Source: Amphirosellinia nigrospora
Taxonomy: Eukaryota; Ascomycota; Sordariomycetes; Xylariales; Xylariaceae
Reading direction: 5' to 3'
NCBI GenBank assembly: GCA_004123355.1
Contig: SCHM01000001.1
Location: 9,310,193 to 9,374,192 of the forward strand
Length of the DNA: 64,000 nt
Numbering within the stretch: the first letter of the stretch is position 1; every line of letters starts with the position of its first letter. Both the position numbers and the translations under genes were made by a program. Below are positions 15,449 through 63,530 of the stretch, piece by piece. The notes below the pieces were generated by a model. It made no database searches. It was given only the letters and a program-made list of their open reading frames with translations, and had not been told where the DNA came from.

Positions 15449-15456
15449 TAAATAGT

Positions 15457-15791
15457 TTTATAAGCTTATAAAGCTTACTATATAACTTTATTATTTATAT
15501 TATATTTTCGGTATATTTAAGCTATATATATAATATATTATTTTTTATTTATTATTTTTATTTTTTAAATAGTTAAATAATTAGTTAGTTAGCTATTTTT
15601 TGTTTGTTTTTTATTTTTTAGTTAGTATAAGCAAGTATAAGCTAATGTTCGAAGCTTTTACGAAGCGTATACGGGGCGTATATAACTCGTTAAAGCCGCA
15701 ACTATTAATCGAAAACTAGCTTGTACTACTTATATTTCCCTAATACTAGTATTTTTTTTATCAAAACAAATGCCCTAAAGTGTGCTGTAGA
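15457..15791. mobile_element. Short internally deleted copy of the same transposon, joined head to tail
   Basis: It begins with a RIP-altered form of the left end (TTTATAAGCTTATAAAGC for TCTACAGGCCTATAGGGC). Bases 15457-15539 match 9581-9663, and it ends with the better preserved right end at 15791. At about 335 bp it is the size of a MITE-like deletion derivative. The right half is far less RIP-mutated than the left half. No good 8-bp duplication follows it (15792-15799 is TCTTCTAA). The alternative reading is a 3' LTR, but the left end lacks the matching partner. Confidence 0.45.
15637..15790. repeat. Right-end repeat of the transposon, better preserved copy
   Basis: Partner of 15294-15447. 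It retains GC-containing words such as GAAGCGTATACGGGGCG and AAAGCCGCAACT, so it serves as an internal reference for the direction of mutation in the other copy. Confidence 0.75.
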
Positions 15792-31800: not shown

Positions 31801-34800
31801 ATAAATAAAACTATATAAATTTGCTATTAAAGCTATTTTAGCTATAAAATATAAATATTTTTATTTATATATATAATAGCATTATTATTATAAATAATAA
31901 ATTTTAAAAAAAAAAACGAATTATTATTATTAAACTTTTTATAGCTTTATTATTTAATAAATATTATTTTATTCTAGTAAAAAATAAACTTATATTAAAT
32001 CTTAACTTTAAAGCGGTTTTAAATAAAACTAATAAAATTAAAATTAAAAAAATCGAGTTTTTTAAGCTTATAAATAATAAAAATAATAAAAATAAAAACA
32101 GCTTAAAAAAATTATATAAATTTAATAATAAAAAATTAAAAAATTAAAATTATTATTTTAATTAACTAATTAAATCGTTAAACTGTTTAATATTAACTAT
32201 ATATTTATATATATATTAATAAAATTTTATTTTATTTAATATTTATTAAAGTCCTTAAAAATTTTAAAAAAGTTTATTTATTATAATTATAACTAATAGT
32301 TTATTTATAAACTTCGAATAAATATAAATAATTAAAAAAATAATATTTATAAAAGCTTATTATTTTTTTTTTTATTATAAACTTAAAAGAATTATTTATT
32401 AGTTAATATTTAATTTAAACTAAACAAGTTTTTTGTTCGATAAAAACTTTTGCTTTAATTTTTTTTAACGGGATTTTTTTATTAAATTTTATTTATTTTT
32501 TATTTAAAAACGTTTTAAAACTTATAAACTTATATTTAAATTTAAAGCTTTTTAAAAAGTAATAAAAACTAGTTTATAAGTTTAAAAGTATAACTAAAGT
32601 TTTTTATATTAAATAATTTAATAAATAAAATAATACGAACTTTTTATATTTACCGAGATTTTAATAATAAATATTTTAAATATAAAAATAATAAATTTTT
32701 ATATTTATTATATAAAAATTAAAAAAAATTAACTTTTTAAAACAAATCGAAATAAAAATATTAATTTATTTTTTAAAAATATTAGCTTAATTATTTATAT
32801 AAAAAAATATTAATATTAATATATATAAATTTATTGTTTATATAAATAAAAAACTATTAAACTAGTATAGTTAATTAATATTAATTAATAAAAATTTTAA
32901 AAATTTTAATATAAAAAAAACTTTATTTAATATTTAATTATTAAAATATTAAAAAAAATATTTAGTACGTTTATTATATTAATTAAAAATATTTACTAAT
33001 ATTTATTAAATTTTTAAGTTAAATTTTATTTTTTTTTCGATTTAAAGCATATTTATTAAATAATTTTATTATATTTAAATAATAAAAAAGTTTTTATATT
33101 TTATATTTTAAGCTTTTTTTAATTATAACCGATTTATATATTTTAAAGTTTATAATTAGCTAGATTTTTAATAATTAAAATAATAACTATTATTATAAAA
33201 GTTATTTTTATATTTTATTTAAAAGAATTTTTTTTTTTTTTTTAACTTTTAATAAAATAATTTTATTATTTTTTATATAAATAATATTTTTATTATATAT
33301 AAAACTTTTAAAAATAATAAATATTTATTTATAATTATTTATTATTTCGATTAAATTAAGCTTTTTTAAAATTATTTTTTAAAAAAGTTATATTAAGCTA
33401 TAAAAAAATCCTTATTTTAAAAATTATTTATTATATTTATAAAAAATTTATAATTAAACTTAAAAAATAATATAAACTTTTAAATTAATTTATTTTAAAA
33501 AATTAAATTAATATTCGAGCGTTTATAAATATTATAAGCTTAATTTATAAATAAATTAAAAATTGTTTAAAAATTGTTCGATTTTTATACGTTTTATTAA
33601 TAAAGTTCTATAAAAATAAAAAAATATAAAAGTTTATTATTTAAATTATTTAAAACTTTAACGTTTAAAATATTAAAAATTTATAAATATTAATATAATT
33701 TATTATATAAAGCTTATATCGATATTTTTAGCTATATTATTAATTTTATTATTATTTAAACTTAAAATAAATATAATATACTTTTTTATATAATAGTTTT
33801 TTTTTATAAAAAATTAAAAAAATTATAATATTTATAAATAAAAGCTTTTTATTATTATAAAGTTTATTTAAAAATATTTTTAATACTTTATAAAACTACC
33901 GGGTATTTAATCTATTATTTATATAAATTATAAACTTTTTATTTTTTTTATAAATTTTATTTATTATAAAAAAATATACGTTTGCTAAATAGTTAAGCTT
34001 TATATAGCTAATATTTTAATTATATATATTAAAAAAAAAAAATAAAATAATAAATATTTTATTTCGAATTATATTTTTAACGAAAATTATAAAAATAATA
34101 TAAACTTAAAAGCTTTTAATAAAGCTAATAAAAATAGAATATAAATATAAAAAATAAAGCAATAAATACGAAAAGTTTTTCGAAAAAATTTCTTAATAAA
34201 TTAACTTTCTGCTTTTAAATTAATTAGCTAAAATTTTAAATTCTAACTTAATTCGTTTTTTTTTTTTAATTTAAACTAATAAGCTTAAATTTTCGGATTT
34301 AATATTATAACGTTTGTTTAAAAAATATATAAAGCTTTTATTTGTTAATTTTTTAGCTATTATTTTAGTTTTAAAGCTTAGCTAAAAAAAATATTTAAAA
34401 AAACTATAATATTTTAATATAATTTGTTTATTTATTATTAAAATTTAAAAAAACTTTTATAATCGATTTAATATTAAATTATTAATTAATAAATTTAAAA
34501 ACTTAATTAATTAATAATTATTTTAAATATTATTAAAAAATATTTAAAAGTTTTGTTTATATAAAATAACGTTTTAAATGTTTTATATTAAGCTTATAAA
34601 CTAGTTAGATATTTTTTTTTATTTTAATTTTATATCGGCTAAATTAATTTATATATTAGCTTATTATAGTTATAAACGTTTAAAAATATTATTTAAAATA
34701 TTTTTAATATATTAAGTTTAATTTTAGTAAATTTAAATTATTTTTTTTTTAATAATTATATATATATTTTTTTAAATTATAGTTATAGATTTTATTAAGC

Positions 34801-37800
34801 TATTTAAGTTTATTTTAAAAAAAAATCGATATTTTTTGCTATTAATAAATTATTTTAGTAAATTTATATAAACTATATTTATATTTAATATTTTAGCTGC
34901 GATTTTTATCTAAGTGCTAATAAATAATAATATTAGCTATATATTATTTTTTTATATTTTATTTAAACTTTAAAAATATTTTTATATTTAAAAAGCTAAA
35001 AACTATAAAATAAATTAGTTTTAATATTATAAACTATTTTTTAAGTTTTTATAAATTAATAAATATAATAAAATATATTATAAAATTTTATAAAATATTT
35101 TATTTAAACTAGCTAATATATAAATATATTTAGCTTTAAAGCGAATTTTATAGCAAATTAAAATAATTTATTATTAAAAGCTATTATATATATAAATTCT
35201 TATTATATAAAAAAGTAGGTTTTTGTTTTTTAAAATTTTTATAAAACTTTATTTATAAAAGTACTTAAATTTATATATTTAAATAATATTATATTTTTAT
35301 TAAAAACGGCCTTAATTAATAATATTTTTAAGCTATTATTTTTTAAATAATTATAAGAGCTTTAATTAAAGTACGTTTTATAAATTTAATACTGCTATAA
35401 AATATAAAAAAAATATATCGGCTAAAAAAAAAAAAAGCAATATATTTATACTATAAAAAATCTAATTTATTGCTAGAAAATTTATATATAGTTCTATAAA
35501 AAAAAACATAAAAAGTTAGCCCTAAAATAAAAAAATCTTTTTATTATTTAACGTTAAAAAAAATAAATTTTATTTTAAATATATAATTTAAATAATATTA
35601 ATATTTTTATTTATATTTATTATAAAAATTCCTTTAAATTATTTATTTTTTAAAAAACTATTTTTAATAATTAAAAATATTAGTACTTTTGTTTAAACAA
35701 ATTATATAATATTAAATAATTTATTTAAACAAAATTAAACTTTTAATTTAATTATAAATTAGTTTTAGTTTAATAATTATATTAAAAAGTTGATTTAAAA
35801 ATTAATTAAAAAATATTAACTATATTTAATTTTTTTTTTTATATTTATTAAGATTATTAAAATTTTAGGCAGTTATATTATTTATTATTATTTTTTTTTT
35901 ATAAGTTAAACAAGTTTATTAGTTTTTTTATTTGTTTTTTTTTTTTCTTTTAGCTTTAAACTAATAGCTTATTAAACGTTTGCGAATTTTATAAAAAATA
36001 TATTAAGCTAAACTTAAATCGGCTTATTTTAAATATAAAACTTATTATAAATAATATTTTTAATTATTTAAAAAATAATATAATTTATTAAGATTTTTTA
36101 AATATATATTTGCTAAAAAATTAAAATATTTATTTATAATATTAATAAAATAAAATAGCTTAATATTTTATAAAATTATATTTAAAAATTTCGACTTAAA
36201 AACTATTAATCTTTCGATTAAAATATATTTATAAAAACAATTTAAAGCTTTATTAAAATTTATATTAAAAATTTAGTTAAAATTAATAATTATTAAAAAT
36301 AACCGTTAATATTAAATTTTTATTTAATATAAAATCCGTAATATTGAATTTTGTTTTTTATTATTATAATTTTTATAAAATAAATTTTTATAATAAATTT
36401 ATACTATTAAAATTAAGTTTTTATTCGGTATAAATAATATATTATAGCTTTAAATTATTATATTAAGCTTTATTAAATTGCTTTATAACTATAAACTAGT
36501 TTAATTATACTTTAGGTTATATTTTTTTTAAAATTAATATAAGTTTTTTAAATAAAAATATTCTAAGTTATTTTTATTTCAAGCTTACCGTAAAAATTAT
36601 TTAATTTTTATTTTAATAGTTTTTAAAACTGATTTTTATAAGCTATTATTAAACTAAGAAAATATTAATATTTAATATTAAAAATAGCTATAGCTAATTA
36701 AAATTATAAAAGTATAAAAGCTTAGTATTTTATTTATTAATTTAATTTAAAAATTTTTTTTTTTTTTTAGTTTATTTAAAATAATAAATTTAATATATAT
36801 ATATTTACTTAAGCAGTTAAAAAAATTATAATATTTATATTTAAATATTTAAGCTAAATAATATAAAAAGTAAAAAAGCTTAATATTTTCTTTTATATTT
36901 TTATTTAACGTTTATTAAAAAAGAAAAAAAACATAAATATATATTTAATTGCTTTAAATATAAAAACTTTTTCTTTTATTAATTTATATAAACTTTCTTT
37001 TTTCTTTTTTTTTATATATTATTACTTTTGTTTTTAATTACTTTTTTTAAAACTTTTTTACTTTATATTAATAACTATTTAAATAATATACGTAAATATT
37101 TTATATTATTAAGTTATTAATTATAATATTTATTTATTTTTTTTTTTTTGCTTTTGCTATTTTAATAGTTTATTTTTTTTTAGAACTTTTAGTTATTATA
37201 TTTGTTTTATCCTTTTTGCTTAAATTATTAAAATTATTAAGTATGTTTTTAAAAGCGTTCGTTAAAAATTTTATAGTTTTTTTTTAATTTTTAACTTTAT
37301 AAAAGCTTTATTTTTTAGTTTAAATTTTTAAACTGTTTTTATATATATATTTTTAAAAAAAAATACTAAAAATAATTTTAATAAAATAATATAAACTTTT
37401 TATAACTTTAATATTATTAAAATAATTAAAAAAGGTTTATATTTTAAACCTATTTTATATATAAGTTTTTTATTAAACTATAAATAATTTTTTATATAGC
37501 TATATATTATTTTAATATTTTTAAGCTTTTAAAAAGTAACTATTTATAATACCCTCGGTTATTTTTTTATGTTTAAAAAAATCTAAATAAATATTAGTTT
37601 ATATTATTTTAAAAAGTTTTTATTATTTATTCGCCCGCTTTTTTAATAGTTTTTGCTATTTTTTTTTTTTAAAGAAATAAATATTTATATTATTTTTTAA
37701 AACTTTTAAAAAATCTATAAGTTTTATTATTAAACGTTTTTTTATTTAACCGTATTTTAGCTTTTTATAACTTTCTAACTTCAGATTTATTTTTAAAATA

Positions 37801-38170
37801 TACTTAGTTTTTTAAATATAACTATATTACGCTTAAATAAATAAAATATTTTTTTATATTTTAAGTTTATTATAAAATTAATTTATTAGTTTATAAATAT
37901 TTTAAAAAGAAATAAAAAGCAGATTTAGTTTTTTATTTAAAAACTTTTATAATTATTATATTTTTATTATAGCTAAGTTTAAAGAATAAAGTTTTGTTTT
38001 TTATTTTTAATTAGTTAAAATATTTAAAGCTTATATAAATAATAAAATTGTTTACGTTATTTTAAATAATCCTGTTTTTTTATAAATTTTAAAAAATATA
38101 TATTTAATTTATTTATAATAAATAGCTATTTTTAGTTGTTAAGTATTTATTTTTAGTAATTTAGTTAGAA

Positions 38171-38374
38171 TAAGAAGAATATTATAGGTTGTAAAGTAAA
38201 GCTTAATTAAAGGAAGAGAATCTATTATTAGATCCACGTAATAGATCTAATAATAGATTTTCTAACTAGTAGTATGCCAGCTGTTTATTTAGTTATAGGT
38301 ATTGCTAGGTAGCTTCCCCTTGCGCTCCGCGCAGGGAAGCCACTAGTAATACAGACCTTTTAAGGGCTTTATTA
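38171..38374. repeat. 5' LTR of the nested element
   Basis: Direct repeat of 46040-46239. It contains a perfect 14-bp inverted repeat (38221-38234 with 38244-38257, 9-bp loop) and a GC-rich hairpin TTGCGCTCCGCGCAGGGAAG near 38320-38339 that has escaped most of the surrounding AT drift. Confidence 0.78.
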
Positions 38375-41300
38375 AAATGCTGGGGTATAAAAAAATCTCT
38401 GCTAACTTTAGCAGATCGATTTAGCTAAGCTATATTATAATTATAGTTCTTTTTATATAATATTAAGTAATACTTTAGCTTGTTCCATCTCTTCTACTAT
38501 TCTATCCATGGGCGTATTAGCAATAATAGGAATAACGATAAAGATTAATGCTAGAATCAGTTCCAGAGTTAGGGCATTAATAATTACTTTACGTAGCTTA
38601 TTATAGGAACGCTTAGCTTTCGTTTTTGTTACTTTAAGCGTAAAATTAGATTCTAAAATTAAAGTATTAGAAATTACCTTATGTAATCTACCACAAAAAC
38701 GTTTAGCTATTATCTCCGTTGCTTTAAGCATAAAATCAAATATAAATAATTCTACGAAAAACTTCTTCCTTTTTAGCAGTATAAAGCAGAGGCCATATTT
38801 AGCCCAGTATTTATTAATAAGTTTTTACAAGTGCTGAAAATAGTGCGCTAAATATTAGCAGTTATACTTATAACCTTATTTTTTCTATTTAATTAAATAG
38901 TTAAAATTATCTTTTTTTTGGTTAGAATAATGCTTAAATATAACCTCGATTTTATAAATATTACTTTCGTTATTATTATCGGAGTATTAGTTGGCTTCGA
39001 TAGGACCTAGTAATAATATTGTTCGCTTAAAAAGTTTTTATTACTTTTGTATAGTTATAACTATACGATAGAAATAATAAGGTATATACAGTAGTATTTA
39101 AGGAAATCTAGTTTATAAGCTAGGTTGCTAACCTTATGTTTAATAACTTAAAGTTTAATATGTTGCTATAAGTATTTTTTAGAAAGCTTGCCGGGTAAAT
39201 AATAACCGTTATATAAGCGGAAGAAAACTTTATTATTTAGTTTAAATTCTAATATTTAGTGCTTATTATTAAAGTATTTTTTCGCTATAGTAGCAATAAA
39301 ATCTATAGCTAACTTAGTATTTTATTATAAGTAGTTACGTAAAAATTTTACGTTTTTAAAGTTATGTATATCTACTTAGCTTATAAGTATATCGAAAAGG
39401 CTAAGAAGTTTAAATTTAAATAATTATTCGTGCGGGATAAATTATATAGCTTATAAAAACGCGGAGTTAAAGTTTTATTATAAAACGGGAACTATATCGA
39501 GCTAGTTCGACTTAAAGTATATATAATTATAAAAGTATATTATAATTTTAATCGTTTAGTTTTTTTTTTGGATAAACTATTTTTTTATAGGTAATATAGT
39601 AGTTATTAATAATTTAATACTTAATGCTTTCTATATACTTTTTTAAAAGTCGGAAATAAACTTATAATCGCGATCGGAGATAATTTTTTTAAAAATACCC
39701 TAATTATTAAAGAATAATTGTTTAATTAAAACTATCGCTTAGTTTTTGGCTATATATTTTATATTGCCGGGATTATAAACGTCCGTTTAAATATATAATA
39801 AAAAACTGTTATTATATAATTGTATATATTAAAACCTTTTAGCTGCTATAAAATATTTTATAATTTAATTAAAAGTAATAATAAAATAAAATTAATTATA
39901 ATTATTTATATTAGTAGCGTATTTTGGGTTTAATTAAACGTAAACTACTTATTAGTTTTTGTTTATTATTATAATTAATATTATATCTTAGACAATATTT
40001 GTAGTATTTTTTAACGTACTACAACTTTTTATAGATCGAATATAGTTCTAAGGCTTTTATTATCTAGTTAAGTCCGAAGTAATATTTTTATCGTATATAA
40101 TATATAATATTTATTCGCGTATTATATGCGGAACGTAAAATCGTTTAACTTTTTCGTATTTATTATAAATTAAACTATTTGCGATAAAAAATAAGTACCT
40201 GGCTTTAGAAAAAACAATAGCGTTTTTATTATTATATAGTTTATAAAATTAGTCCTAGCAAAATTCGTCCAGGATTTTCTTATAATAAAGGTCTGCTTTA
40301 TATCTTAGCTCGAAATTATGTTTAAACGCGTTATCTATTATTATTTTCGCAGTATATTCTACCATATTTTATATAAAGTTTAGCATTATAGGTTTTTATA
40401 ATCGCTTTAACTTATTTTTTAGGTTAATAGTATTTTATACTATAATAAGTCGATTTAACATATCTAGAATATAATTAAAACGTTTTAATAAATAAAAAAA
40501 CTTAGAAACTATATTGCAATAGATAAACGGATAAATTAATAAACCGATTATTTGTTTTATTAGTAATAAAAGTATTTAATAAAGTTTAATTAATAATACT
40601 TTTTGTGGCTAAATAATCTATTAGGACTATTATACGGTGTTTATTTAAATAAATTATTATATAAAGCTTTTTATAGTTTATATAAAATATGTTATTTCTT
40701 GTTCGGAAGGGCCGTACTTAGTTTTAGCTTGTAATAAGTATTGACTTAAATATATAACTAGTTATATTTATATAAAAGGTATAGGTTCGCCTGGTTTTTA
40801 TTTAAAACCTGGTTTAATGTGAAAGATTATAACACCGAAACTTCGTTCGAGATACCTATTAACTTATAAATATAGGATATAATCTAGGTTATAATAGTAA
40901 AGCGTGGTTTTAGAATAAATAGCGTCCTAAATAGCATTAAAAGAAGCTATTTTAGCTAGTATAAGGTTATAATATAGTTCGTACGTAATACTTATAATAA
41001 CCCGGGTTACTATTTACTACTTTCTTTTCTTAATAACTTTTAACTAGTAAAGCTATTTTACGTTTTTATAAAAGTTCGGCTAATTATACGTAATAAAAGA
41101 AAAAGTTGTAGAAAAATTTACTTGCGCTAAAATATTACTTAAAAGCCTAAAAGTTCTTAGGAAATATAAGCTATTTAAACGTTTATATACGCTTAATAAT
41201 AATAAATATTCTTAAAATATTAATACAAAATCCAAAGAGTTTAATAGAAAGGTAACTAATAAAAAATTTCTTTAATAATATAGCGATATTTTTTAACTAA

Positions 41301-43639
41301 AACAAGCTAAAAATAGTATTTAAGTACTATATATACTTCTTAAATATATCAGAAAAATGATAATATTATCGATAAAATAGCAACAAAATAAAAATAAAAA
41401 TAAAAGACTTATTTATATACTTTTAGATATAACTAGGAGAATTTATATATTTTATTAATACAACCTTAGATTGTTTTATACTATAAGGACTAATAATAAA
41501 CCTATTTTTATAGTTAGAATAAACTAGAAATTAATAAAAAAAACCAGTTGCGTTAACGTAAATAACGTAGGCCTTTTTATAAAAGTTTTTAATTATTTTA
41601 TTCTACAAAAAAAAAAGATAGCTATTAAGAATAGCAACTTTATTAAACTATTATAAATTAATGACTACTCAGCCTTTATCTACGCTATAAACCTTCCTCT
41701 AAGTAACAAATATAAAGTACGCAAAAAGTATGGCTTTATTTATCTAAGTTATACGACCTATTTTATAAAATCTATTATAAGTTTTATTAAAAACTTTTAT
41801 ATCTTTTCGATTAAAAGGATAAGCTTTTATATTTAGTTTTATTTTTGCTAATTATTAACAAAAAAAATCTTAAGCTGCTCTACTTTAAAGATATCGATTT
41901 TACTTTTATTTATTTAATATCGTAAGCTTTAATAATTTCGGCAAACTTAGCTGCTTCGAAAGCTTTTTTAGCATAAATATAAATATTATTATTAATTATA
42001 TTTTCAGGAAAATTTATAAGCTTTTTAATGCCTAAAATAAAATATATTTTAAAAGCTTCGGTTTAAAAAGCTTTTCTAGTATTAATATATATAGTTCTTC
42101 CAATAGCAGCGTAGTTCTAGTGCTTATAATAAGGTTATATACCACATTAATAAAAAAAATATTTAAAAACTAAACGTTACAAGTATTAATAGCTAAAAGC
42201 AAAAATACCATTTTTTACGTAAAACTAGTAGTATAGTTACTAGTTTTACCAAGCGCTACTATAAGAACAACTATAAAATTCGCTAGTTTGTCTATAAATA
42301 TTAATTCTATTAATATTATATTAGTTATAATAGCTATAATAATTAGCGTTATATCGAATTTAGTATTTACAGCAACAAACAAATTTAAAATAGCTAGAAA
42401 TCCCAAGCTAACTATTTTAGCCAATAATACTACTAAAATAACCGCTACAATAGCTAAAGTTTTTATAGCTAATTTCTATAAGCTAATATATACGTTACTA
42501 TTATAATTTTCGCGGATTTATCTTAGTTTAATACCTTTGCTTATTTTAACTAAAGTACTTACAGTATTAATAACTGGGACAATTTTAAAAGTTTTTACGT
42601 CTATTATAATATTTATTGTATTTTTATATACTACTATAAAACAAAAATTACGGTTAATAAATAATAGTTTATATTTAACCTATAAATATACGCTTTCGCC
42701 AGCTATAATAATTATAGTACGCGTACTAATAACTCTTCGTACATACTTGTAGCTACGAACCAAAACTTTAAAATTAATAATAAAATCATCGAAATCATAA
42801 AAAATAATAATACTTTTAAAATAATTAATAATAACTTTATAAAAATAAAAAAGTCGTTACTAATTAATATACTTAGTTATAATTTTTTATTTATAACTTA
42901 ACCTTTTTTTTCATATTCTATAATTTTAGGCCGTTTATTACTATTAATTTTTTAAATAAAAAACTTAAATTTAGCCTAATACATTATTTTATACGCTTAT
43001 TTCCAATAATAATTATTTAGCCTTCACGTTTTTTTATTATATGCTCTAGCATATTAAAATATTTATCGCTAATTATAGTCCTACCTATATTTAAATCGGC
43101 ATACACTTCCACGTTTTAACCGGTTAATAAAGCGTGCGTACAAAAACAAAAGTACATATAGCTTAAGCGTAAAGCTTTATATACGCGTCTATATTTAGCG
43201 CCTTAAATATAAATATCTCCGACTTAAAGATTTTATCTAACTTACCCTATATAAATAATAAATTATTATTAAAAATACTTTGCTTTTTAACTATACCTTT
43301 TTTAGCTAATTTATACTAGCTTAAATATCGGAAAAATTTATTTCGTAAAAGTAATACTTAAATATAATATCTATATATACGTCGCTTAAAAACAATAAGT
43401 AAAAAAATATTAATACGCGCTATATATTTTAATAAAATATATAGCTTATATTTCTATATATATAAAACAAAAGTATTAAATAACTTATATTTTTATAATA
43501 TTTATAATAAATAAAAACTAAACTAAGTATATAATAAAAGTACCGCCGCTATAATATCCTCCGTTAGTATTATACCTAGATTCTCCTCTATTTAAACATA
43601 CATTATTAGCCTAATATACGCCGTAATAGCTATTACGTT

Positions 43640-43755
43640 TTTTATTGTAATAACGCTTACAATCGCTGCTATAATCGCAGCTACAGTTGCAGCTATAGTT
43701 ACAATTACAGCTATAATCTCAACTGCCGTTACAACTACTATTACATTTTTTATTT
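43640..43755. repeat. Degenerate short tandem repeat inside the nested element
   Basis: About a dozen imperfect copies of a six-base unit of the GCTATA / GCTACA type alternate with AATCGC and AACTGC. One strand would read as an Ala/Ile/Val-rich low-complexity chain, but no coding role is supported. A similar low-complexity stretch, reading Asn/Gly-rich on the minus strand, lies at 44660-44790. Confidence 0.5.
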
Positions 43756-46039
43756 TATCGTTACGTTCTTTATCCTTATAAACACTTTTTTATTACTTCC
43801 TTTATAATAGCTACAATTTTTATTACAATCGTTATTACATTATTTATTACGCTTACTATTAAAATAATAATAACGTTTATAATAAGATTAATATCTACCT
43901 CTTAATCGATAATAATTAAAATATTTATAATTATCGTATTTAAAACGTAAATTCTAAAAGTTTTATTACTATTTTTTAAATAGTCGTAAAAAATTTAACG
44001 TTAAAAATTTATACTCTGCTTTTTATTCTAATCCGTAGCGCGTTTTATCGATCTTTTTTATATATTTATTTAATATATTTTTTTTTTTAATAAATAAATA
44101 TAATCAACAATCACTTCGGCCTATTAATTGCGGATATTCTCTATAATACCCTACTAATTAGAATTATCTCATGCTAAAGTTCTGTTTCCGCAAATATATT
44201 ATAGCTTACATTAAACAAATTAAATAAATATATTCTTATTCTACGCTATATCGAATAAAAAAAAATTACCTTTAAAAAACTTTTTTATAGCGTACCTAGG
44301 GCGCATTTTAAAACGTTTTTCTAGCTTTTTAAATACTAAGCTTAAGCTTATTTTCTGCTAAATATAATAATTAATAAGCTTAACTTTATCGTTCTATTAT
44401 AAAAAAGCAGAACCTACAAAAAATAATCAAATAGTTTTAAAATTTAGCTATTATTTAATAATTCTATATTATTAAGCTCGCATATAGTTTAAATACGTCA
44501 AAAAAATATATATATCCGTATAAATAATATTTTTCCTATCTACAATAACTCCTTTATTTTCTAAATTATCCTAATTAAGGTTTAAAACTCTAATGTTTTT
44601 ACGTTTAATCTTATAAATACTTTTTATTATAAATATAATTAAAACAAAATTTCGTAACAATAACGTTTATCGCTATAGCTATAGCTACTAAAGCTGGCTT
44701 TACTACTAATAAATCTAGATTATTATCAGGGTTACCCGCTCCACCGTTACTGTTTCTACTACCATTACCATTACTATTACCATTGCCTATCTCAATTAAA
44801 AAATATATTCCCATATTTCCTATATTATTTTTAGGACAACAAAAAAAAGCAGGAGCAAAGGCATTATTGCTAACCTATCGTATTCAGAAATAAAAGCAAA
44901 AATTATTATTATTCTTTCTTTACTTATAGCTATATTATTAAAATTAATCGCTATACCGCAAAAAGCTCACTAGTCTAATATAGTTAAAAATAAAACATTA
45001 ACAAAAATATAATATTAATTTTTTTAAAACTCTATAAAAGCGCTAAAATTTTAATTTATTTATATAATTAAATCAATTTATTATTAATTATTTAATATCT
45101 TTTTATAGCTTTTTTACATTTAGTTTAATTTAATTTTACTTAAAATTACTACTTTACTATTATTTTAAAAATATATTTATAGTTTCGGCGTTAAATCTTA
45201 GCTATTAATTTAGTCTTTTAAACAAAACCCTACAAGTTCTTAACTTATTATCGCTAATTAAGCTCTATCAATATCAATATCGGCTTTAGTTACTTTTACG
45301 CTAACTTTATTTTTCTTGTTTTATTTCAACTTTTTAAATTATATTATCGGATAATCTATAAATATCTTTAATAAAGCTTATACTAATAATAATAATATTT
45401 ATTCTAACAATTATTACGCTAAAAATTAAAAAAAAAAAACTTTAAAAAAATTTTCTAATAATAAATTTAACGTTTAATTCAATAAATAACCAAATATATA
45501 AAAAAAACTATTATTATATTAATTTTATAATTTATCGTTTTATATATATTTATAAAATAACTTGGGAACAAAATAATTATATATAAATAAAATAAAATAA
45601 AATATATATAATTATAATTATATTTTAATAATAAAACTAATATATTTATAAACTTTATAATAAACTAGAATGTTTAAAATTTTATAGTAAAATTAAAATA
45701 TTAGAACAATTAATTAATAAGAATCCGCAACGTCTATAACTTTATAATAATTTTAGCTACGCCGCAAAAACTAGTACATCTAAAATATAAAAATGCTTTA
45801 TTAAGCTTTTTTAAAGCTAAATAATTAGCTTATTTAGAAGCTTTACAAAGAGTAAAAATAAAAATATAAAATAAATCAACGCTAAGGCGCAAATTTGCTT
45901 TAATTAACAGATACGTATAAATTATACGCGTTAATTGCCGCTGGGAAAATTAATATTTTTCGACCTTAAAAGATTTAAAACAAATAGTTTTTAGTATAAT
46001 TTGGTGTTTATAATAAAACTACGTAATAAAGCACTACTT

Positions 46040-46239
46040 TAAAAAAAATATTATAGGTTATAAAATAAAGCTTAATTAAAAAAGAGAATTTATTATTAGA
46101 TCTACATAGTAGATCTAATAATAAATTCTCTAACTAGCAGTATGCCAGCTGTTTATCTAGTTATAGGTGTTGCTAGTGGCTTCCCCTGCGCTCCGCGCAG
46201 GGAAGCCACTGGCAACACAGACCCTTGGGGGCTCTATCA
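46040..46239. repeat. 3' LTR of the nested element
   Basis: Direct repeat of 38171-38374, ending CTATCA before the flanking TAGAA. It contains the shared words GTATGCCAGCTGTTTAT and CACAGACC. The GC-rich hairpin is better preserved here than in the 5' LTR. Confidence 0.78.
46175..46210. repeat. GC-rich hairpin in the 3' LTR
   Basis: AGTGGCTTCCC and GGGAAGCCACT are perfect inverses around TGCGC/GCGCA and a short TCC loop, giving a nearly perfect 36-nt palindrome. The 5' LTR keeps most of it. It stands out as the most GC-rich point in 19 kb of AT-rich sequence. Confidence 0.75.
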
Positions 46240-48167
46240 TAGAACTTAAAATGCTAAGTTTATTAATTTTTATATATATTTAAGCTTTTATCCGAAAAAA
46301 AACTTATAACTATTAAATTTTATAATTAGTTATTTAAACTATTATTAAAGCTATAAATAACGTTAAATAATTATATTTTTTTATATTTTTATAGAATTTT
46401 TATAATTTTTTTATTTTTTAAATAAAATAGTAAATATTTTAAAAGCTATAACGTTTTTTTTTTAGATTTTTTTGCGTTAATTAATTTCGCTAAAAAGCTA
46501 GAGCATAGCTAGCTAAAAACTTTCTATATTATTTTTTATATTTTAAAAAATTTATAAAACTAAATATTAATATGTTTTTTATTGTTTTAATATATTTATT
46601 ATAAAAGTTTTAAATTAGTTTACCCGGAAATTTAATTAAACTTTTATTTTAATAGCTTTACTATTTTGCTTATTATTTAATAGCTTGCTAAATGTTTTAT
46701 AGTTAAAAAAACTTTTCTTTTTTTTATAGTTCTTTTTTATTTAAAATATATAATTTTACTTTTTTCCTCCCGAACCTTTTTATAAACCTTTTTATTAAAC
46801 TTACTAAAAAAAGCAACTTTATACTATTAGAAAAACTAAATTTTTTAAACGTTATAAAAATTAAAATAAAAGATATTTAGATTTTAAATTTAACGGATAT
46901 AATAAAAATAAAATAGTTTATAATAATTATTAACTAATTACTTTTAAGGATAAAAAAGCTAACGTATTTTATTACAAATTATAAAAATATTATATATTTA
47001 GCGAACTTAATTAACTTTTTTTTATTATAATAATTTAAAAAAGAAAAAATAAACTATAGCATTTTTAAAAAATATATTAAAAAAAATATTATATTTATTT
47101 AAAAAAGTTAATTATAATAAATTAACTATTATATTATTTTATAATTATTAGTTTTATAAAAAAAATTATTTAATAAAAAATATAAACAATATTTATTTAG
47201 TTTATAAGTTTAATATATTAAAACTTTATTTAATTTATATATTATTAAAGCTATAACTTATTAACTTTTTTTAACTACCGGAACTTTTTTTAATAGCTTT
47301 TACTATTTTTAATATTATTTTAATTTTGCTTTTAGTTTTAGTTTTAATTTTATTTTTAATATTTTATTATATTATTTTTAATACTTTTAGAAATTTAATA
47401 ATTAAATAATTTTTAATTTAGTTTTTAATATTTATTTCTAACTTTATTTATTAGTATAGCTTTTAATATTAAATTTTATTTAATTTTAGATTTTTTTATA
47501 AACTTTTTAAATTATTAAAAACTATTATAACTTTTAATGTTTTTTATTTTTATATATTTTTAAACGGTTTAATTAACTATATTATTAATTTAAACTATAT
47601 TTATTAAACTTTTTGTTTAGCTTTTTGTTTAAACTGTTTTAGTTTTTTTTCCGGTTTACGTTAGTTTATTTTAAACGTTATAAATTATATTTATTTTATT
47701 AAAAAAAAAAAACAAGTTATATTAAAAATCGCTTTAAACGATTATACTAATAGCTTATATATAAATTAAACTTTTTACCGAATAATAAGCTATTTTTAAT
47801 ATTATATTCGAACTATTTATAATTTATTTATATAAAAAAAAATTAAATATAATTAAAATATTAAAACTATTTATAAAAAAATAAATTTTTTCGTTTTTAA
47901 TTAATATTATAGTTCGGACTACTTTAAGATCTATAAAAAGAACTATTTAAGAAATTTTTTTTTTTTCCTTTAATTATTTTTATAATTTTCTAATAGTTAA
48001 ATACGCAAAAGTTTAAACAATTAATTTATATATTATTAATATAATAAAGATATAAAAAATCTAGTTTTATTTTATTTTTAGTATATTATATAATTAGAAT
48101 TTATTGCTAAAAGCAGTTTTTTTTGCCCTAAAAATAACTAAAAAGCAAAATATATTTACTTTATTAG

Positions 48168-56165: not shown

Positions 56166-57226
56166 ATGGTGATATCAGGGATCCTGTGATATATGGGGTA
56201 GGTTATCTATACTTGTTGTGCGCAAAGGTTTCTAAATCTACCTTCGTAGACGTAACCGGGCTATATACAGATGAATCTCTTTGTTTCGTAGTACTGTGGC
56301 TTTGCAATACTGTGGCTTGAATATTGTGGCTTCATGACAGGTGAGGATTATTTTAGATGGGACATATGGTCTAAGCAAGAAAAGGGGGCGGTACTGTAAA
56401 TTCAGCTAGATATAGCCCAACGGAAAGAGCGATATGAGTCAGAGCTCGAGTAGTCAGTTCGCATCGTGATTAGAATAGCTAAATTCGACTCCAATCCAAG
56501 CCAGCTCCTTGAGAAGTATTTAGCTAGAATAGCGTAGATAACCTGGAAGTCATTGAGTACGCATATGTTTGCTTGTATCTCGTTGATGTCTCCATTGATG
56601 TGACTTGATTAGGGTTCTGGTACATCTTAAGTTTCAACAAGACTTTCCTGTCCCGTGGAGGATTTGGTGCGAGATATTAGAACGTCGGACAGGGGTGAGC
56701 GTTGCCATTTGGTACGATGACGTCCTCTCGGCTCCAGACGTGAAATTTATATGTGGTGAGCTATATAACTTCCAGCTCTACTCATGGGGCGGGGTTATCG
56801 TTACGTTATAATATCCAGACAAGATTAGAGATCCAAGTCGTGGTATATGTTTCCTTAGTTTTATTTCAAGAGAGATAATTCTAATAGAAGAGGAATCTGT
56901 AGTTTATATCACGGAGACTACCTAGATACTTGTCACATTCATATCACATTCACACGATAAAGCGAAATAGTCTGTACAAAGCATGTATTAATCTGCAGCG
57001 GCTCTATCTTGCCAGTCTTGCATCTATAAACATGTATACAGAAAGCCCAATTCCTATTCCCTATAAATTCCTCAACGTGATAGCCATCACGGAGGTAGCA
57101 GAAATACACTCTAGCCAACGTCAAGCACAAAATAGCCTTATAGCTATGGTGCTTGGTAGCGAGTCACTGGAGCACGCAGCTATTAGACTTTGACATCAAT
57201 CAGGAATGAGGTACTTTACTTACTTC
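56166..57226. other. Intergenic with dispersed and duplicated sequence
   Basis: Contains the dispersed repeat at 56198 and, from about 56945, the start of a duplicated segment that recurs from 58984. The 68-residue plus frame at 56605-56811 has no recognised motif. Confidence 0.5.
56198..56262. repeat. Dispersed repeat, copy 2 (partner near 3331)
   Basis: Shares TAGGTTATCTATACTT, TTGTGCGC, AAGG, TCTAAA and AGACGTAA in order with 3331-3395. It begins 33 bases after the broken HET gene. Confidence 0.5.
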
Positions 57227-57730
57227 TTAGAGGTCAGAAGGCTGACGTTTTCCCTGTCCGTCGGTCGCCAATGCGACAATCACGCCGCCACAAACTGCAA
57301 CAGGGCAGCAAAGGCAGTTGATAATCGCAGCAATAGCGCCGCAGACGCAACCAACACTGCCGCAAAGGAGGCAGCACATACAACTCGCAACACTCTTTAA
57401 CTCGTCGACAACTACATCGAGCCAGCCATCCTCGAGTTCTCCTAGCTTTCCATCTAACTCCGAAAAGTTAGGAACTGTAGCAGGATCGCTCGCGATTGCC
57501 TCCAAAAAAGCTCTTGATGGTGTCTTATCTGGCGAGTTATCGAGGTCCGTGTCCTGCATGGCTTTCATCTCACTTCGTTTGGAGGAGTGAAGGCGCTTCG
57601 TCACAGAGACCTTGCATCGCTTCAGGCAATCCCGGCAGCGCTGCTTTGCAGATCGCGAACCGGTCATGCTGGCGTTGGAAGGACCTGTGGACTGAACACC
57701 AGACGGCCGAAGAGTCGCTGAGGCAGACAT
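57227..57730 (-). CDS. Cysteine-rich small protein with hydrophobic C-terminal region, tandem copy A
   Basis: Single exon, 167 residues from the ATG at 57730 (MSASATLRPSG). The frame is open further upstream to 57844, but the paralogue at 59.8 kb aligns only from this ATG, which fixes the start. Three parts are visible: a Ser/Arg-rich head with a CRDCLKRC motif, a middle part (SDPATVPNFSELDGKLGELE), and a tail with ten cysteines in two hydrophobic runs (CMCCLLCGSVGCVCG and NCLCCPVAVCGG). The Cys/Gly/Ile/Val-rich tail suggests a membrane-inserted or palmitoylated segment rather than a secreted disulphide knot, since there is no signal peptide. I know no named family. Confidence 0.65.
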   Translation of the reverse strand: MSASATLRPSGVQSTGPSNASMTGSRSAKQRCRDCLKRCKVSVTKRLHSSKRSEMKAMQDTDLDNSPDKTPSRAFLEAIASDPATVPNFSELDGKLGELEDGWLDVVVDELKSVASCMCCLLCGSVGCVCGAIAAIINCLCCPVAVCGGVIVALATDGQGKRQPSDL

Positions 57731-58066
57731 CTTCCGCAAATAGAAAAATACGAAATCCCAGATTTTGTTTTGGGGTTTAGTGTTACTTGACTTGGGATAG
57801 TACCAAGCAAGCAAGGCTTTACAACCAATCTCAGACCCGAGCACGAGTGTGAGACCACTAAGTAGCGAGCGCTATTACTAGATGATGTTAGAAGTGATGG
57901 GAAACAGGGCGAGTTAAAATTACGTACATGAGGCTGCAGCTAAAGAGGATTTTCTGGAAAGTGGCGGATACTCTGGCGTTGCAGTTTTTTTCTGCTGATC
58001 AGTTGTGAAGAAACTGAGATGTAGAAGGAATGGAGGGAAGGAAAAGAAATAATTAGGGTGAGGCCT

Positions 58067-58073
58067 CTTTATA
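58067..58073 (-). promoter_or_regulatory. Candidate TATA box for copy A
   Basis: TATAAAG on the minus strand, 337 bases above the copy A start codon, in a CCCTCC-rich setting. A donor GTACGT near 57928 and an acceptor CATCTAG near 57880 suggest an intron in the 5' leader. The region around it is duplicated upstream of copy B, where TATATAT at about 60357-60366 takes the same place. Confidence 0.45.
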
Positions 58074-58130
58074 GGGAGGGAGGCAGGCTCTAAGCAAAAA
58101 TGGTTGCCGCGGCGATGCTCGCGGGCTGCT

Positions 58131-58945
58131 TGGTAGGGCTCCGCGCAACAACAGGTATAGATGGCCTTCCCCATATATCACAGGGTCCCTGCCAGGAATA
58201 TGGAACTAGACATCTAGACAAACAGATTAGACCAGACAAAGAGACTCTCTGTATATAGTCATGTAGTCACATAGAGCCCACGGAGATAACTTCACTAGTT
58301 CTCCATGCAACAACAGATGTCTACACCCTACCCCTGCGAGGTCTATGGCATTCCCTGGCAATAATATATTCGGGCATTCACGTACTATAATATAACAAGA
58401 AAGGAAGAACTTAAATCTGATTCCAGCGTAGCTTCTTTATATTTCGTGGATAAGCTAGAGAACGAATTACTAATATCTCTAAAGTAGCAATCAAAGTATT
58501 TAGTTGATTTATCGCAAACAGCCTAGAAGCTACTACGTAGGCAAATGTGTGCTCATATCTTATTTACGTTTACGTTTACAAACAATATGAATAAAAGTGA
58601 GAAGAGACAATCTTCAGTTCTAATCACGGAGATTGCCAGGAAACAGGGATCTAGGCACACGGATCCAACCGGAACAAAGCGACTCTCTGTATATAGTCAA
58701 GTAGTCACATAGAGCCCACGGAGATGACTTCACTGATCCTCCGTTTAAGAACAGATGTTTACACCCTACCTGTCATGAAGTCACGCCACATTACCCCAGC
58801 CACACTACCACAAGGCCACAGTACTTTAGGAACAAAGAGATCATCTGTATATAGCCTAGTTACGCCTACGGAGGTGGTTTGGAGACCTTCGCGCAACAAC
58901 AAGTATAGATGACCTACCCCATACTACGAGGTCCCTGACACTACC
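58131..58945. repeat. Local non-coding repeat family between the two cysteine-rich genes
   Basis: A unit of about 150 bp recurs here in direct orientation. Full copies lie at about 58187-58345 and 58634-58780, sharing GACTCTCTGTATATAGTCA, GTAGTCACATAGAGCCCACG and ACAGATGT(C/T)TACACCCTAC. Partial copies lie at about 58131-58190 and 58829-58930, sharing CGCGCAACAACA(G/A)GTATAGATG. No frame is kept. It lies between the duplicated gene segments and may have mediated the duplication. Confidence 0.65.
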
Positions 58946-58983
58946 CTTGCAAAGTTCGTCTCAGAGATTGCGTAGGCAATTGT

Positions 58984-59357
58984 CACATTCACACGATAAA
59001 GCAAGATAGTCTGTACGGAGCATATATTAATAAGCATGGCTTCATCTTGCCAGCCCTACGATTATGAAGCTATGTATAGAACTCCCAATTCCCGTTCCCA
59101 GTCAGTAGAGCTAATCATAGGGAAAGCCGAGCACTGCCACTTTGAACGTGAATCTTTCTCATTCTCCCAAACTCCCCCGCGTCATAGCAACCGTTAATCT
59201 CGAGGCCATGGCAAATATCAGCAAGTCACTGGGGCATGGACCTGTTAGCATTTGAGATAAATCGGGGGGGGGTATTTCACTTACTTTTTGGATAGCACAA
59301 TGGCTAGCTTTTATGTGTTTGAGTTGGCTTTTTAGTGTGTGGAGAAAATACAAAGTA
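58984..59357. repeat. 3' part of the duplicated segment, copy B
   Basis: CACATTCACACGATAAAGCA, then ATAGTCTGTAC, GAGCAT, and CATCTTGCCAG match 56945-57030 in the same order and orientation. The similarity runs on into the cysteine-rich genes and beyond their promoters, so the duplicated segment is about 1.1-1.4 kb in each copy. Confidence 0.65.
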
Positions 59358-59814
59358 TTAGTCCATCACCACTAGCGTCTTGACTACACAGGTAACGGGG
59401 CAACATAGACAGTTCACCGCGCTACCAATGATGCAGCCCACGCAACCAACACTACCACACAGAAGACAGCAGAAACACTTCGCGAGGCACCTTAGCACCT
59501 CTCCAACCCCATAAGAAAACCCCCATTGAGCTTTCCCAGTTCGACGCCTTTCAACTCCGAGAAGTCGGGCACCGTACTGGGATCGCTAGCAATGGCGCCA
59601 GCAGCTGCGGCCGAGACAGGGAAAGACTTCTCTGGATGCGAATCTTTGTTCGCGCGATGCTTTAGTGACTGTAGGCATCGCTTCACAGAGGTCTTGCCTC
59701 GCTGAAGACAGCTACGGCACCGCTGTCTGGCGATCGCGAGCTGCTGGTGCTGGAGGGGTTTGTAGGGTTGGTGAAGTGTTCACTAGACGTCCGAAGAGTC
59801 GCATTGGCAGACAT
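59358..59814 (-). pseudogene. Cysteine-rich small protein, tandem copy B, frameshifted
   Basis: Starts MSANATLRTSS at 59814 and follows copy A through CRSCLQRGKTSVKRCL, IASDPSTVPDFSELKG and the cysteine-rich tail CFCCLLCGSVGCVGC, then NCLCCPVTCVVKTLVVMD. Two frame changes are needed to follow it: a 1-nt loss near 59735 after SSRS, and a second change near 59510 before the Cys-rich tail. The tail keeps most of its cysteines, so the copy was under constraint until recently, or the breaks are sequence errors. It is shorter at the C-terminus than copy A. The two copies have the same orientation, with start codons about 2.1 kb apart. Confidence 0.6.
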
Positions 59815-60103
59815 CTTTCTGAACGAATAGATCCGCAAAGATCCCAGGCTGTTTTGGGTTTGTTCTGTGTAGTGTCACTTATCTCCGATCGGTACGGAGA
59901 TGAGCAAGGCTAGATAGAACTGTCCCAAGATCCCAGGATGCTTGGGAACGCTGAAAAGCGTCCTTGGTCTTTGGGCAGTGCAAAGATCAAGCCGACTATT
60001 TGGCCAATCTTAGCCCTGCAAAATGCAGAGTCTAAAACCACTACGGAGCGCACGCTAACCTTCGAATGAAGGCCGTCACTAGATGATATTAGCGGTGATG
60101 AAA

Positions 60104-60219
60104 AGTGTGGGAGCAAAGGTATAAGAATGAAGGTGTAGGAATGACAGTTGGGAGTGAAGATGTAGGGTAAAGGTGTGGGAGTGAAGGTGGGGGAGGTGAA
60201 GTTGTAGGAGTGAAAGGTA
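60104..60219. repeat. Minisatellite upstream of copy B
   Basis: About seven imperfect copies of a 14-18-base unit, best seen as GTGTGGGAGTGAAGGT with variants such as GTGTAGGAATGACAGT and GTTGTAGGAGTGAAAGGT. It sits in the 5' leader region of copy B. Copy A has no such array. Confidence 0.7.
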
Positions 60220-62581
60220 CTTACCAGAAGCAGTGGCTGAAATGAGGGTTCTGGGAAGGGAGCTGTAATCGTGTGAAGTAGTTTGTTTTAGATCAGTTGC
60301 AGAGGAAACTGACTTGCAGAAAGAACGGAGGAAAGGAAAAGCAGGTGTGAGGAGAGAATATATAGTCAGGGATTGCGGGGCGTTGCCCTGGAGCGATAGA
60401 AGGTCACGGGGGCAACCAAAAGGTTGAGGGTATATTCCAACACCTGAGGTATCGCCAGAATACGTTGGGGGGTGGGTGTCGATAGTTGCTTGGCAGCGTG
60501 TCCTCAGTGTGCATGGGCCATGCCAGAGCGAACCGCCTCGAATAAAGATAATCCGAAGAATGGTGATAATGCGGGGCGACGCCGGCTTCGATGTGAGAAA
60601 TCGGTTCACGATACTAGTTTTGGTGTTTAGGTAGCCCCGTCAATGAGCATGTCCAACCCATCCTAAGCCCACAGGTGTCCGCTCTCTGAAAGCTATGAAA
60701 TCGAGGCTTCGATTTTGCTCGTCACTTGATTATCATTGTCATCCCGCCAAATTTTCAACAGTATCAACTCCAAGGGTCAGACACCTACTGGTCTCACGTT
60801 GAAGGAAAGATCATGGATTTTTTGAGTGCACAAGCTTGATAACGAGTGGCTTATGCTAATTTAAGTGACAACCAAATCGGTAGGAGGCCTACTAGCGTCT
60901 CATTCACATGGGGATTGTACATGGTCATTGCATTATTTTAGAGAAGCTGTATATATACAAGATTGACTGATAGATCAACGCCAAATAAGTCAAACAACCT
61001 CTCCTACCAGCAATGCTTGCTTCTCATCATAATGCGTGCAAACCGAATGAAGTCTATGCAAAACATATAGTGGATTGCCTTATAATCATTATATTTGCGT
61101 ACACATCAATGTATCTATACTTTGCTTGAAGGTAACACAAACCTGGTTCAGTCACGCTATAGTCGACCCGTCATTCCAGTCGCTTTGCTTGCGCTAACAA
61201 TCGTGCTTGCGTCAATCAGTGTGTATATTCATTAACGGATCGCAAAACTAGCGTCCAGAAAACTAGGCGTCAAGGGTGGCAAAATCTGTCCAACCCCTTT
61301 ACCCCTATGATGAGTCAGCAAATGGTTTGGTACTGGGTGTTCGATGCTGCAATTGATTAGATAACGGCCGCCTAAACAAGCGATGAGGCTGATACGATTG
61401 CTATTGGATAGTTATTGAGAATACATACTGTTAGTACGAAGTAATTTTGAAATCAAAGAGGTCACAATTCAGAATAGTCAAATTCAGGAACGTAATCAGT
61501 AGATTTGCTATTAATAATGTATACTTTTAATTAATTCCGTATTTCATTACAAAGCCCAAGACATAGGAGAAGACAATGAAATTTACGATCCTAGACAGCA
61601 GTCGTCGCCTACTGCTCTATGTTTGTAGGACTTACCTCGCCAATTCCGTTCCTCGCCGAGACAAGCCTCGAGACATTTCTAAAGAAATTGTGGAAGTAAT
61701 ACGCGACGACGGTTTTCATGGGGCATGGTGTTTATTTAACCATGCGCTTCAGCTGAAAGCACATGAGACGTGGAACAATATCCACGACACATCATCGCCC
61801 GAGAAAGACGCATACCGTCACGTAGCCATTGGAGCATCTAACCCCTTCTGTACTGAAGGGGCTATCTAACCATCTAAGACGCGAATTATGAATCGAGCAT
61901 AATGCTGTTCGGGGTACCGGAGTTGGGAACTAGGGGGTGCAGGTTACGGGTCCATAGCTCGTCTTCACTATGACCTCTTACCAAGTTCAAAGTGGCATCC
62001 CAACTTGCCATAGGGAGATCCCATTGATCTTTGACATAGCAATGAAGAAATTCTCGAAGGGGCTCTGTAATTTGAGGGCTCATGAATACTGACTGGGCTC
62101 TAGCTCGGGCTAGGGGTCCTGGCTCGAGTTGGGACCGAGCCCGTAAAGCGGTGCTAACTCAGCGCCACAAGATCAACATTATTTGGTTATGTTTGAAATT
62201 GTGCGTACTAATCTCTCAGCTGCAGCTGGGTTCTCTTTGATTGGATTGAACACACATTTAATCCCCTCGGGATTTGTGTTGCGGGAGTTTGCTCAGACAT
62301 CTTGATAAAATTGTGTAGCGGAATGGATGAGCTAACTTGTATTAATTTCGCAGTTCCACGCAAATTCGTGTTTGAGATGAGTGAACTGAGATTCAAGGCG
62401 TTTTAGTTCAATTATAAAGCTGGGATTTGCGCGCTATATAATCAATAATCCTAATTGCAATGCCTTTGTTGCAGCCTGCCTTTGTGGCATAAACAATAGC
62501 GCTGTATCTTAAACAGCCCTTTTCAAAGGGTGACAGCTGTTTTTCTTTTCCCTCCCAAGTTGCATGCATCCTAACAATTAA
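60220..62581. other. 2.4-kb interval, no gene confirmed
   Basis: The left part, to about 60350, is the duplicated promoter region of copy B. A plus frame at 61576-61869 begins with an ATG and contains PRRDKPRDISKEIVEVIRDD, but no family is recognised; it could be a small orphan gene or chance. Minus frames at 61886-62083 and 62208-62396 show no motif. Confidence 0.4.
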
Positions 62582-63530
62582 CTAAAGTAGAGTTTCACCA
62601 AACGAGCGAGCGCTACCCTCTAAACTTGTAAGCATGCCCTTGCTCTTGAAGAGCTTGGAATATATCCTATTCATGCGTGCGCGCAACCACCTACGAGCCT
62701 TTTCAAGATGACAGTTTGAAAGAAAATTAAGGACTAGGAGGGCAACGGCACAGAAAAGCAATTTCCGCAACGAACCCTCAGAACCAAGGTGTAAGACTAT
62801 GAATAGAATGGCATAGCCAATCCCAAGTATGGATAATGTCTCATTTGTGCCGCCAATAATATCGGTGTGGGTACGACGGTAATGGATAACGGACTCGACT
62901 TGGGCAATGGTGTTCTCCATCTGGCCATGCCATTGAACTATTGCAAGAGTTAGCATTGCATCTAGCGCAGATTGGATTGAAGTTCTATCACTTGCCAATC
63001 TCGCCAGGAGCGCGGACATGTCTATCGCATCTAGTGTCTCGAGAATTAAAGCGCGAACGGTGGAAAACTTGCTGTGCCTCAACAACAGTAAAGCCTCTAT
63101 AGGGAATTCCCTGGCGAACACGGCGATGAGGGATACAACGCCGAATTCCAGTGGCAGGCTCCGATTTTCGCCACCATGATAGTCGTATCGTGGGGAAGGT
63201 CTGCTGGCACTGGCCATGGAGGAGTGTTCCAGGCTAGATGAATGGTTAGAGTAAAATATACGTAATATCACACTCACTCAGCCATAACCACTCACCGATC
63301 ATGAACCAGATATATGAGCAGATACCATAGACAGAACGATGGTGACTGTGAGACTTTACTAGCAATGACAAGCCACTATAGTCGTCTCTTTCGCTCAATA
63401 GAGCAAGAATTGTTGACAACTCGTGCAATTTCTGATCCGCCACCACTTTTTCAATCACTGTTTCAATAAGCTGGTCGAGGTCAAAGGGGTCAAAGTCAGG
63501 AGAGCCAGAGGAGTAACCGGAGTCGGACAT
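62582..63530 (-). CDS. Hypothetical protein with two C-terminal membrane segments
   Basis: Exon 1 starts at 63530 (MSDSGYSSGSPDFDPFDLDQ) and reads to YGICSYIWFMIG near 63297. Exon 2 runs from about 63233 to the stop at 62582. A good donor GTGAGT (63295) and acceptor ATCTAG (63234) do not agree in phase; donors GTGGTT or GTTATG a few bases on would, so the exact splice is open. The second half is helical (ALILETLDAIDMSALLARLA), with two hydrophobic segments, GIGYAILFIVLHLG and KLLFCAVALLVLNFL, then a basic amphipathic tail (KARRWLRARMNRIYSKLFKS). About 300 residues. No known family; likely a fungal membrane-anchored orphan. Confidence 0.6.

Follow-up and report, generated by a model that had tools for sequence, protein, structure and literature searches.

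Two copies of a cysteine-rich gene

Analysis of a 64,000-nucleotide stretch of contig SCHM01000001.1 from Amphirosellinia nigrospora (GenBank assembly GCA_004123355.1), referred to here as the window, revealed two diverged, neighbouring copies of one gene, both on the minus strand. Copy 1 encodes an unnamed cysteine-rich protein; the coding remnant of copy 2 is spread over three frames, as assembled (Table 1). The first-pass annotation had proposed a tandem pair in the same orientation, comprising promoter, leader, gene and 3' flank, with one copy open and the other frameshifted. Both proposals were confirmed, the former by the alignment of 58080-56900 with ~60375-58970 in the same (minus) orientation. 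The alignable stretch starts at TATA-like boxes (58074 and 60365) and continues into the 3' flank; the duplicated unit contains the TATA-like box, a putative leader intron, the gene and a second putative intron just past the stop codon. The unit probably extends past the limits originally assigned to it. Beyond a transposon insertion, 56894-56929 aligns without gaps to 58609-58644 (72%; E value, 0.019), and 56514-56580 may pair in addition with 58494-58560 (69%; E value, 0.005), both being weak matches. Shared orientation, homologous flanks and introns, and one broken frame (as assembled) are the features of tandem duplicates with one pseudogene. The event itself is ordinary, and the protein is unnamed.

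The copy 1 protein consists of a basic, Ser/Thr-rich N terminus with the motif CRDCLKRC, a middle part with AIASDPATVPNFSELDG, a hydrophobic Cys/Gly tail and a short polar C terminus. The net charge of residues 1 to 75 is +9 (K+R-D-E). The protein has 13 cysteines, at positions 32, 35 and 39 and ten between 117 and 147, as previously stated for the hydrophobic tail, with at most two of these ten in succession. The tail spans residues ~113 to 157; Kyte-Doolittle windows of 19 residues from 115-133 to 139-157 gave mean hydropathies of 1.98 to 2.40, and windows starting at residues 1 to 70 were negative. The claim that the cysteine tail is conserved between the copies holds for eight of the ten cysteines, which are in register, but not for the other two. 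Likewise, the CxxC part of the reported CxxCxxxC motif is common to both copies (C32 and C35), but the third cysteine, C39, is replaced by Gly in copy 2. An Asp follows the tail in both copies, and the C terminus of copy 2 differs from that of copy 1.

Splice-like signals were compared between the copies. GTANGT occurs three times in copy 1 and twice in copy 2, and CTAAY five and three times, respectively, with only two sites of each type shared in the alignment. We infer that the shared sites pair as two introns of 50 to 146 nucleotides (nt) in both copies. The loose intron pattern also arises by chance (7 occurrences in 16 kb on both strands; mean of 3.0 and maximum of 7 in 30 base shuffles), so the evidence for introns is the alignment of the sites and not their presence alone. 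The putative leader intron of copy 2 is the longer one and holds a 14-bp minisatellite of ~8 copies (60105-60214).

Selection on the encoded protein

To compare the copies codon by codon, the three open pieces of copy 2 were aligned with copy 1, which gave 126 pairs among the 167 codons of copy 1; codons facing gaps, a few near the two frame breaks and those C-terminal to PV were excluded. The proportion of synonymous differences (pS) was 0.61 and that of nonsynonymous differences (pN) was 0.28, giving a pN/pS of 0.46 (bootstrap interval, 0.34 to 0.60; 0 of 2,000 bootstraps at or above 1). The pattern without protein constraint that the first-pass annotation had named as decisive against its proposal was not seen; there is a clear synonymous excess. 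Identical residues amounted to 13 of 25 in the N-terminal piece, 37 of 67 in the middle piece (pS, 0.71; pN, 0.31) and 22 of 34 in the tail piece (pS, 0.68; pN, 0.23). Differences at codon positions 1, 2 and 3 of the coding part numbered 52/161, 49/162 and 83/161 (position 3 versus 1 and 2, P = 2e-5). The 3' flank was even in the same register (40/105, 35/104 and 40/105); the 5' flank was not quite even (48/115, 31/116 and 46/116), with no excess of position 3 over position 1. When the flanks were read as codons in six ways with stops dropped, the ratios were 0.66 to 1.15, and the coding value of 0.46 lies below all six. These results indicate selection on the protein in the period between the duplication and the breakage of copy 2. 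Selection likely acted on both copies for much of that time, the pairwise data being an average over both lineages. The numbers of synonymous substitutions per site (dS) of 2.2 in the middle and 1.8 in the tail are near saturation, and the duplication is therefore old.

The synonymous excess and the codon-position pattern argue against an open frame that arose by chance in a decayed repeat, as do the splice signals that align between the copies and a protein search of the genome that found no dispersed copies. Such an origin is very improbable, although repeats are plentiful around the gene. If both copies were functional and the breaks were sequencing errors, constraint on the middle and tail pieces, which flank a break in copy 2, would also be expected; this reading is improbable in view of two separate breaks, the different C terminus and the minisatellite that enlarges the leader intron.

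Relation to known cysteine-rich membrane proteins

The protein had been presented as one without a named family, and Pfam bore this out: neither copy 1 nor two pieces of copy 2 gave a match at an E-value limit of 10, with HMMER filters that drop most matches above ~0.1. A sequence search of the PDB returned a single chance-level match (E value, 0.38), and a profile search of the PDB returned none. In the first Pfam, own-genome and PDB sequence searches, the query carried one extra residue before Met. Searches of the genome revealed no third copy; the two gene copies are each other's only convincing relatives there. Two further matches were rejected (L004, E value of 0.017, 25% identity over 81 residues with one internal stop; L005, E value of 0.62, 29% over 56 residues), nothing else family-like being in frame at either. 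Six exact peptide patterns, which reach close relatives only, gave 16 pattern matches in viral contigs (IMG/VR) and 53 in prokaryote genomes, none of them confirmed, and plasmids gave no match by tblastn. Literature on CYSTM, PLAC8, Cys-rich tail-anchored fungal proteins and orphan or tandem genes yielded no description of the protein, which is not proof that none exists.

Two known families were compared with the protein. PLAC8 proteins (PF04749) usually carry the pattern CCxxxxCPC, which is missing here, and the PLAC8 profile matched neither copy 1 nor the two copy 2 pieces (no family listed). The likeness is that of a small Cys-rich eukaryotic protein with a proposed metal link, as in fungal FCR1 (PMC6488628, available part). 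According to the available part of PMC10217909, CYSTM proteins (PF12734), such as yeast Mnc1/YBR056W-A and YDR034W-B, are small, tail anchored and Cys rich; their C-terminal transmembrane helix has 3 to 4 consecutive cysteines among 5 to 6 in all and is said to precede an acidic residue, and their thiols might chelate metal or alter the membrane redox state. The copy 1 protein shares the small size, the soluble N terminus and a Cys-rich hydrophobic C-terminal segment followed by an acidic residue, the Asp being present in both copies and membrane insertion being predicted. It differs in having a longer tail of ~40 residues with 10 cysteines and no run of 3 to 4, and the CYSTM profile matched neither copy 1 nor the two copy 2 pieces.

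As a positive control, the CYSTM profile recovered a protein of the same genome (L018:1249-1617), an open frame of 123 amino acids scoring 29.5 bits (cut-off, 25.2). Its N terminus is rich in Pro, Gln, Tyr and Gly, where copy 1 has a basic CxxC region, and it has a CCCC tail. A weaker CYSTM match 10.5 kb beyond the window (L020; 17.2 bits) was rejected, being below the cut-off and in a low-complexity repeat. The PLAC8 profile gave one match above its cut-off on contig C5, in a frame containing 5 stops that reflect introns or decay, and a second below the cut-off on contig C1, neither of them in the window. The profiles thus do detect such genes in this genome. The layout shared with CYSTM would fit a member of CYSTM or PLAC8 that has diverged beyond the reach of the profiles, but this is unlikely given the absence of a Pfam match alongside the score of L018, the lack of a run of 3 to 4 cysteines, and BLASTP against L018, which gave no alignment at E values up to 100.

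We favour, with a probability of about 0.5, a whole-unit tandem duplication of a gene for a Cys/Gly tail-anchored cytosolic protein that was under selection and whose second copy later lost its frame. A small, intron-bearing fungal gene would have been duplicated as a whole transcription unit, and selection would have maintained its protein, most likely in the two copies alike; subsequently the frame of copy 2 would have been lost (in this assembly), and elements of the long terminal repeat (LTR) type would have landed in its 3' flank. The protein would have a basic, soluble N-terminal part, a conserved middle and a C-terminal Cys/Gly/Val/Ile tail of ~40 residues, which probably attaches it to the cytosolic face of a membrane. 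By composition and by analogy with CYSTM-type proteins, the tail cysteines most likely undergo S-acylation, serve in metal binding or redox sensing, or do both; the word palmitoylation does not occur in the available part of PMC10217909. The protein may be a peripheral stress or metal-tolerance factor, as proposed for CYSTM proteins, and perhaps acts like a CYSTM protein without being one.

Several points weigh against this reading. The first 25 codons lack constraint (pN/pS, 0.93), and in the tail end past PV (57297-57227) the position count is reversed (12/22, 14/23 and 8/23). The ratios of the flanks make a value below 1 not unusual by itself, and a comparison without an outgroup does not assign the selection to a single copy. 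S-acylation and metal binding are proposed from likeness only, the tail might instead form two short helices, and the breaks in the frame of copy 2 might stem from errors in the assembly.

What stands is a real protein, selected and unnamed, whose gene forms an ordinary tandem pair in which one copy is out of frame. A tentative extension is an undescribed family in related fungi, separate from both CYSTM and PLAC8, whose members would be Cys rich, S-acylated and tail anchored and would carry the conserved middle motif AIASDPxTVPxFSELxG and a tail signature of 8 Cys. Orthologues with the same Cys spacing would represent another layout of a Cys-rich membrane tail beside these two families. The biochemical role of the two is unsettled; the available part of PMC6488628 describes PLAC8 as a domain of unknown function.

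Repeats and genomic setting

Table 1. Features of the two gene copies and the surrounding repeats (window coordinates; TSD, target site duplication).
Feature	Position	Strand	Details
Copy 1 coding sequence	57227..57730	-	167 amino acids, open; ATG 57730, stop 57227; synonymous excess versus copy 2
Copy 2 coding remnant	59361..59814	-	three frames (59814-59735, 59737-59495, 59510-59361); ATG 59814
Copy 1 TATA-like box	58067..58074	-	putative role; followed by a CT-rich stretch kept in copy 2
Copy 2 TATA-like box	60358..60365	-	putative role
Copy 1 putative leader intron	57878..57927	-	50 nt; donor GTACGT, branch CTAAC, acceptor TAG; sites aligned with copy 2
Copy 2 putative leader intron	60079..60224	-	146 nt; sites aligned with copy 1
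Copy 1 putative post-stop intron	57167..57223	-	57 nt; GTAAGT, CTAAT, CAG; sites aligned with copy 2
Copy 2 putative post-stop intron	59229..59284	-	56 nt; GTAAGT, CTAAC, CAG
Element A, solo-LTR-like	58634..58963	+	~155 bp without insert; TSD GAGAT (58629-58633/58964-58968); split by element B
Element B, solo-LTR-like	58771..58940	+	170 bp, TGTCA...TGACA; TSD CTACC (58766-58770/58941-58945); nested in A
Second A-type element	58190..58350	+	apparently within a B-type remnant (from 58127, region to 58360); flanks GTCCC/TTCCC
Inverted B-type element	56173..56339	-	lies 3' of copy 1; TSD GGTGA

A repeat family had been described between the copies. Repeats do lie there, but they are separate dispersed elements, probably inserted later, and apparently not part of the design. 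A DNA search of the genome with 58127-58980, in which 40 of 398 candidates were scored so that the counts are lower bounds, gave at least 45 matches, one being the window itself and at least 44 others having 80 to 97% identity, some of them neighbouring pieces. The matches represent two families of short elements that have TG...CA ends, B (170 bp) and A (~155 bp). In the 18 loci inspected, a subset of the at least 44 other matches, a 5-bp target duplication was exact in 10 of 11 loci of family B, with one mismatch in the other (by eye), and exact in 4 of 7 loci of family A, with one mismatch in one and none seen in two. The TG...CA ends and 5-bp target duplications are those of solo LTRs of LTR retrotransposons, from which these elements differ in being just ~155 to 170 bp long. 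Element B sits in A, which in turn interrupts the flank 3' of copy 2. When both are removed, this flank continues into sequence resembling copy 1 (weak matches), so the insertions most likely postdate the duplication. The repeats are an unlikely cause of the duplication, given their position inside the flank and the resemblance of the empty site to copy 1 (a weak match on the far side).

The genome comprises 48.1 Mb in 11 contigs. Pfam matched four of nine frames scanned in the window (Pex13, P450, FAD-binding and tyrosinase) and two of five beyond its end (alpha/beta hydrolase and fungal Zn2Cys6 regulator), which marks the genome as fungal. The window contains AT-rich blocks at 10000-15500 and 29000-47500, with 2-kb bins down to 8% GC (range, 8 to 23%) amid sequence of ~45 to 50% GC. 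The thresholds for indices resembling repeat-induced point mutation (RIP) are 0.89 for TpA/ApT and 1.03 for (CpA+TpG)/(ApC+GpT). The blocks have RIP-like values of 1.26 to 1.30 and 0.18 to 0.35, respectively. The 831 bases between the copies are RIP-like by both indices (1.2 and 0.94), copy 1 is not (0.57 and 1.35), and in copy 2 one index is raised (TpA/ApT, 1.0) and the other is 1.15. RIP is an unlikely cause of the divergence, the transitions between the copies being near symmetrical (T-C, 64; C-T, 56; A-G, 53; G-A, 48) and copy 1 lacking RIP-like values. The locus clearly illustrates how a duplicate can be maintained by selection on its protein and lose its reading frame afterwards, here in a genome that has AT-rich, repeat-worn blocks.

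A lineage-specific, effector-like gene near such blocks, with unconventional export of its product, would accord with the Cys richness, the presence of only two local copies in this genome and the distance of ~9 kb to a block of 8 to 23% GC with RIP-like indices. It is nevertheless doubtful, as the N terminus is not hydrophobic by the hydropathy windows and the hydrophobic stretch is C terminal. Elsewhere in the window, two overlapping open frames at 62582-63530, without a match in Pfam, encode 231 and 94 amino acids and contain hydrophobic stretches.

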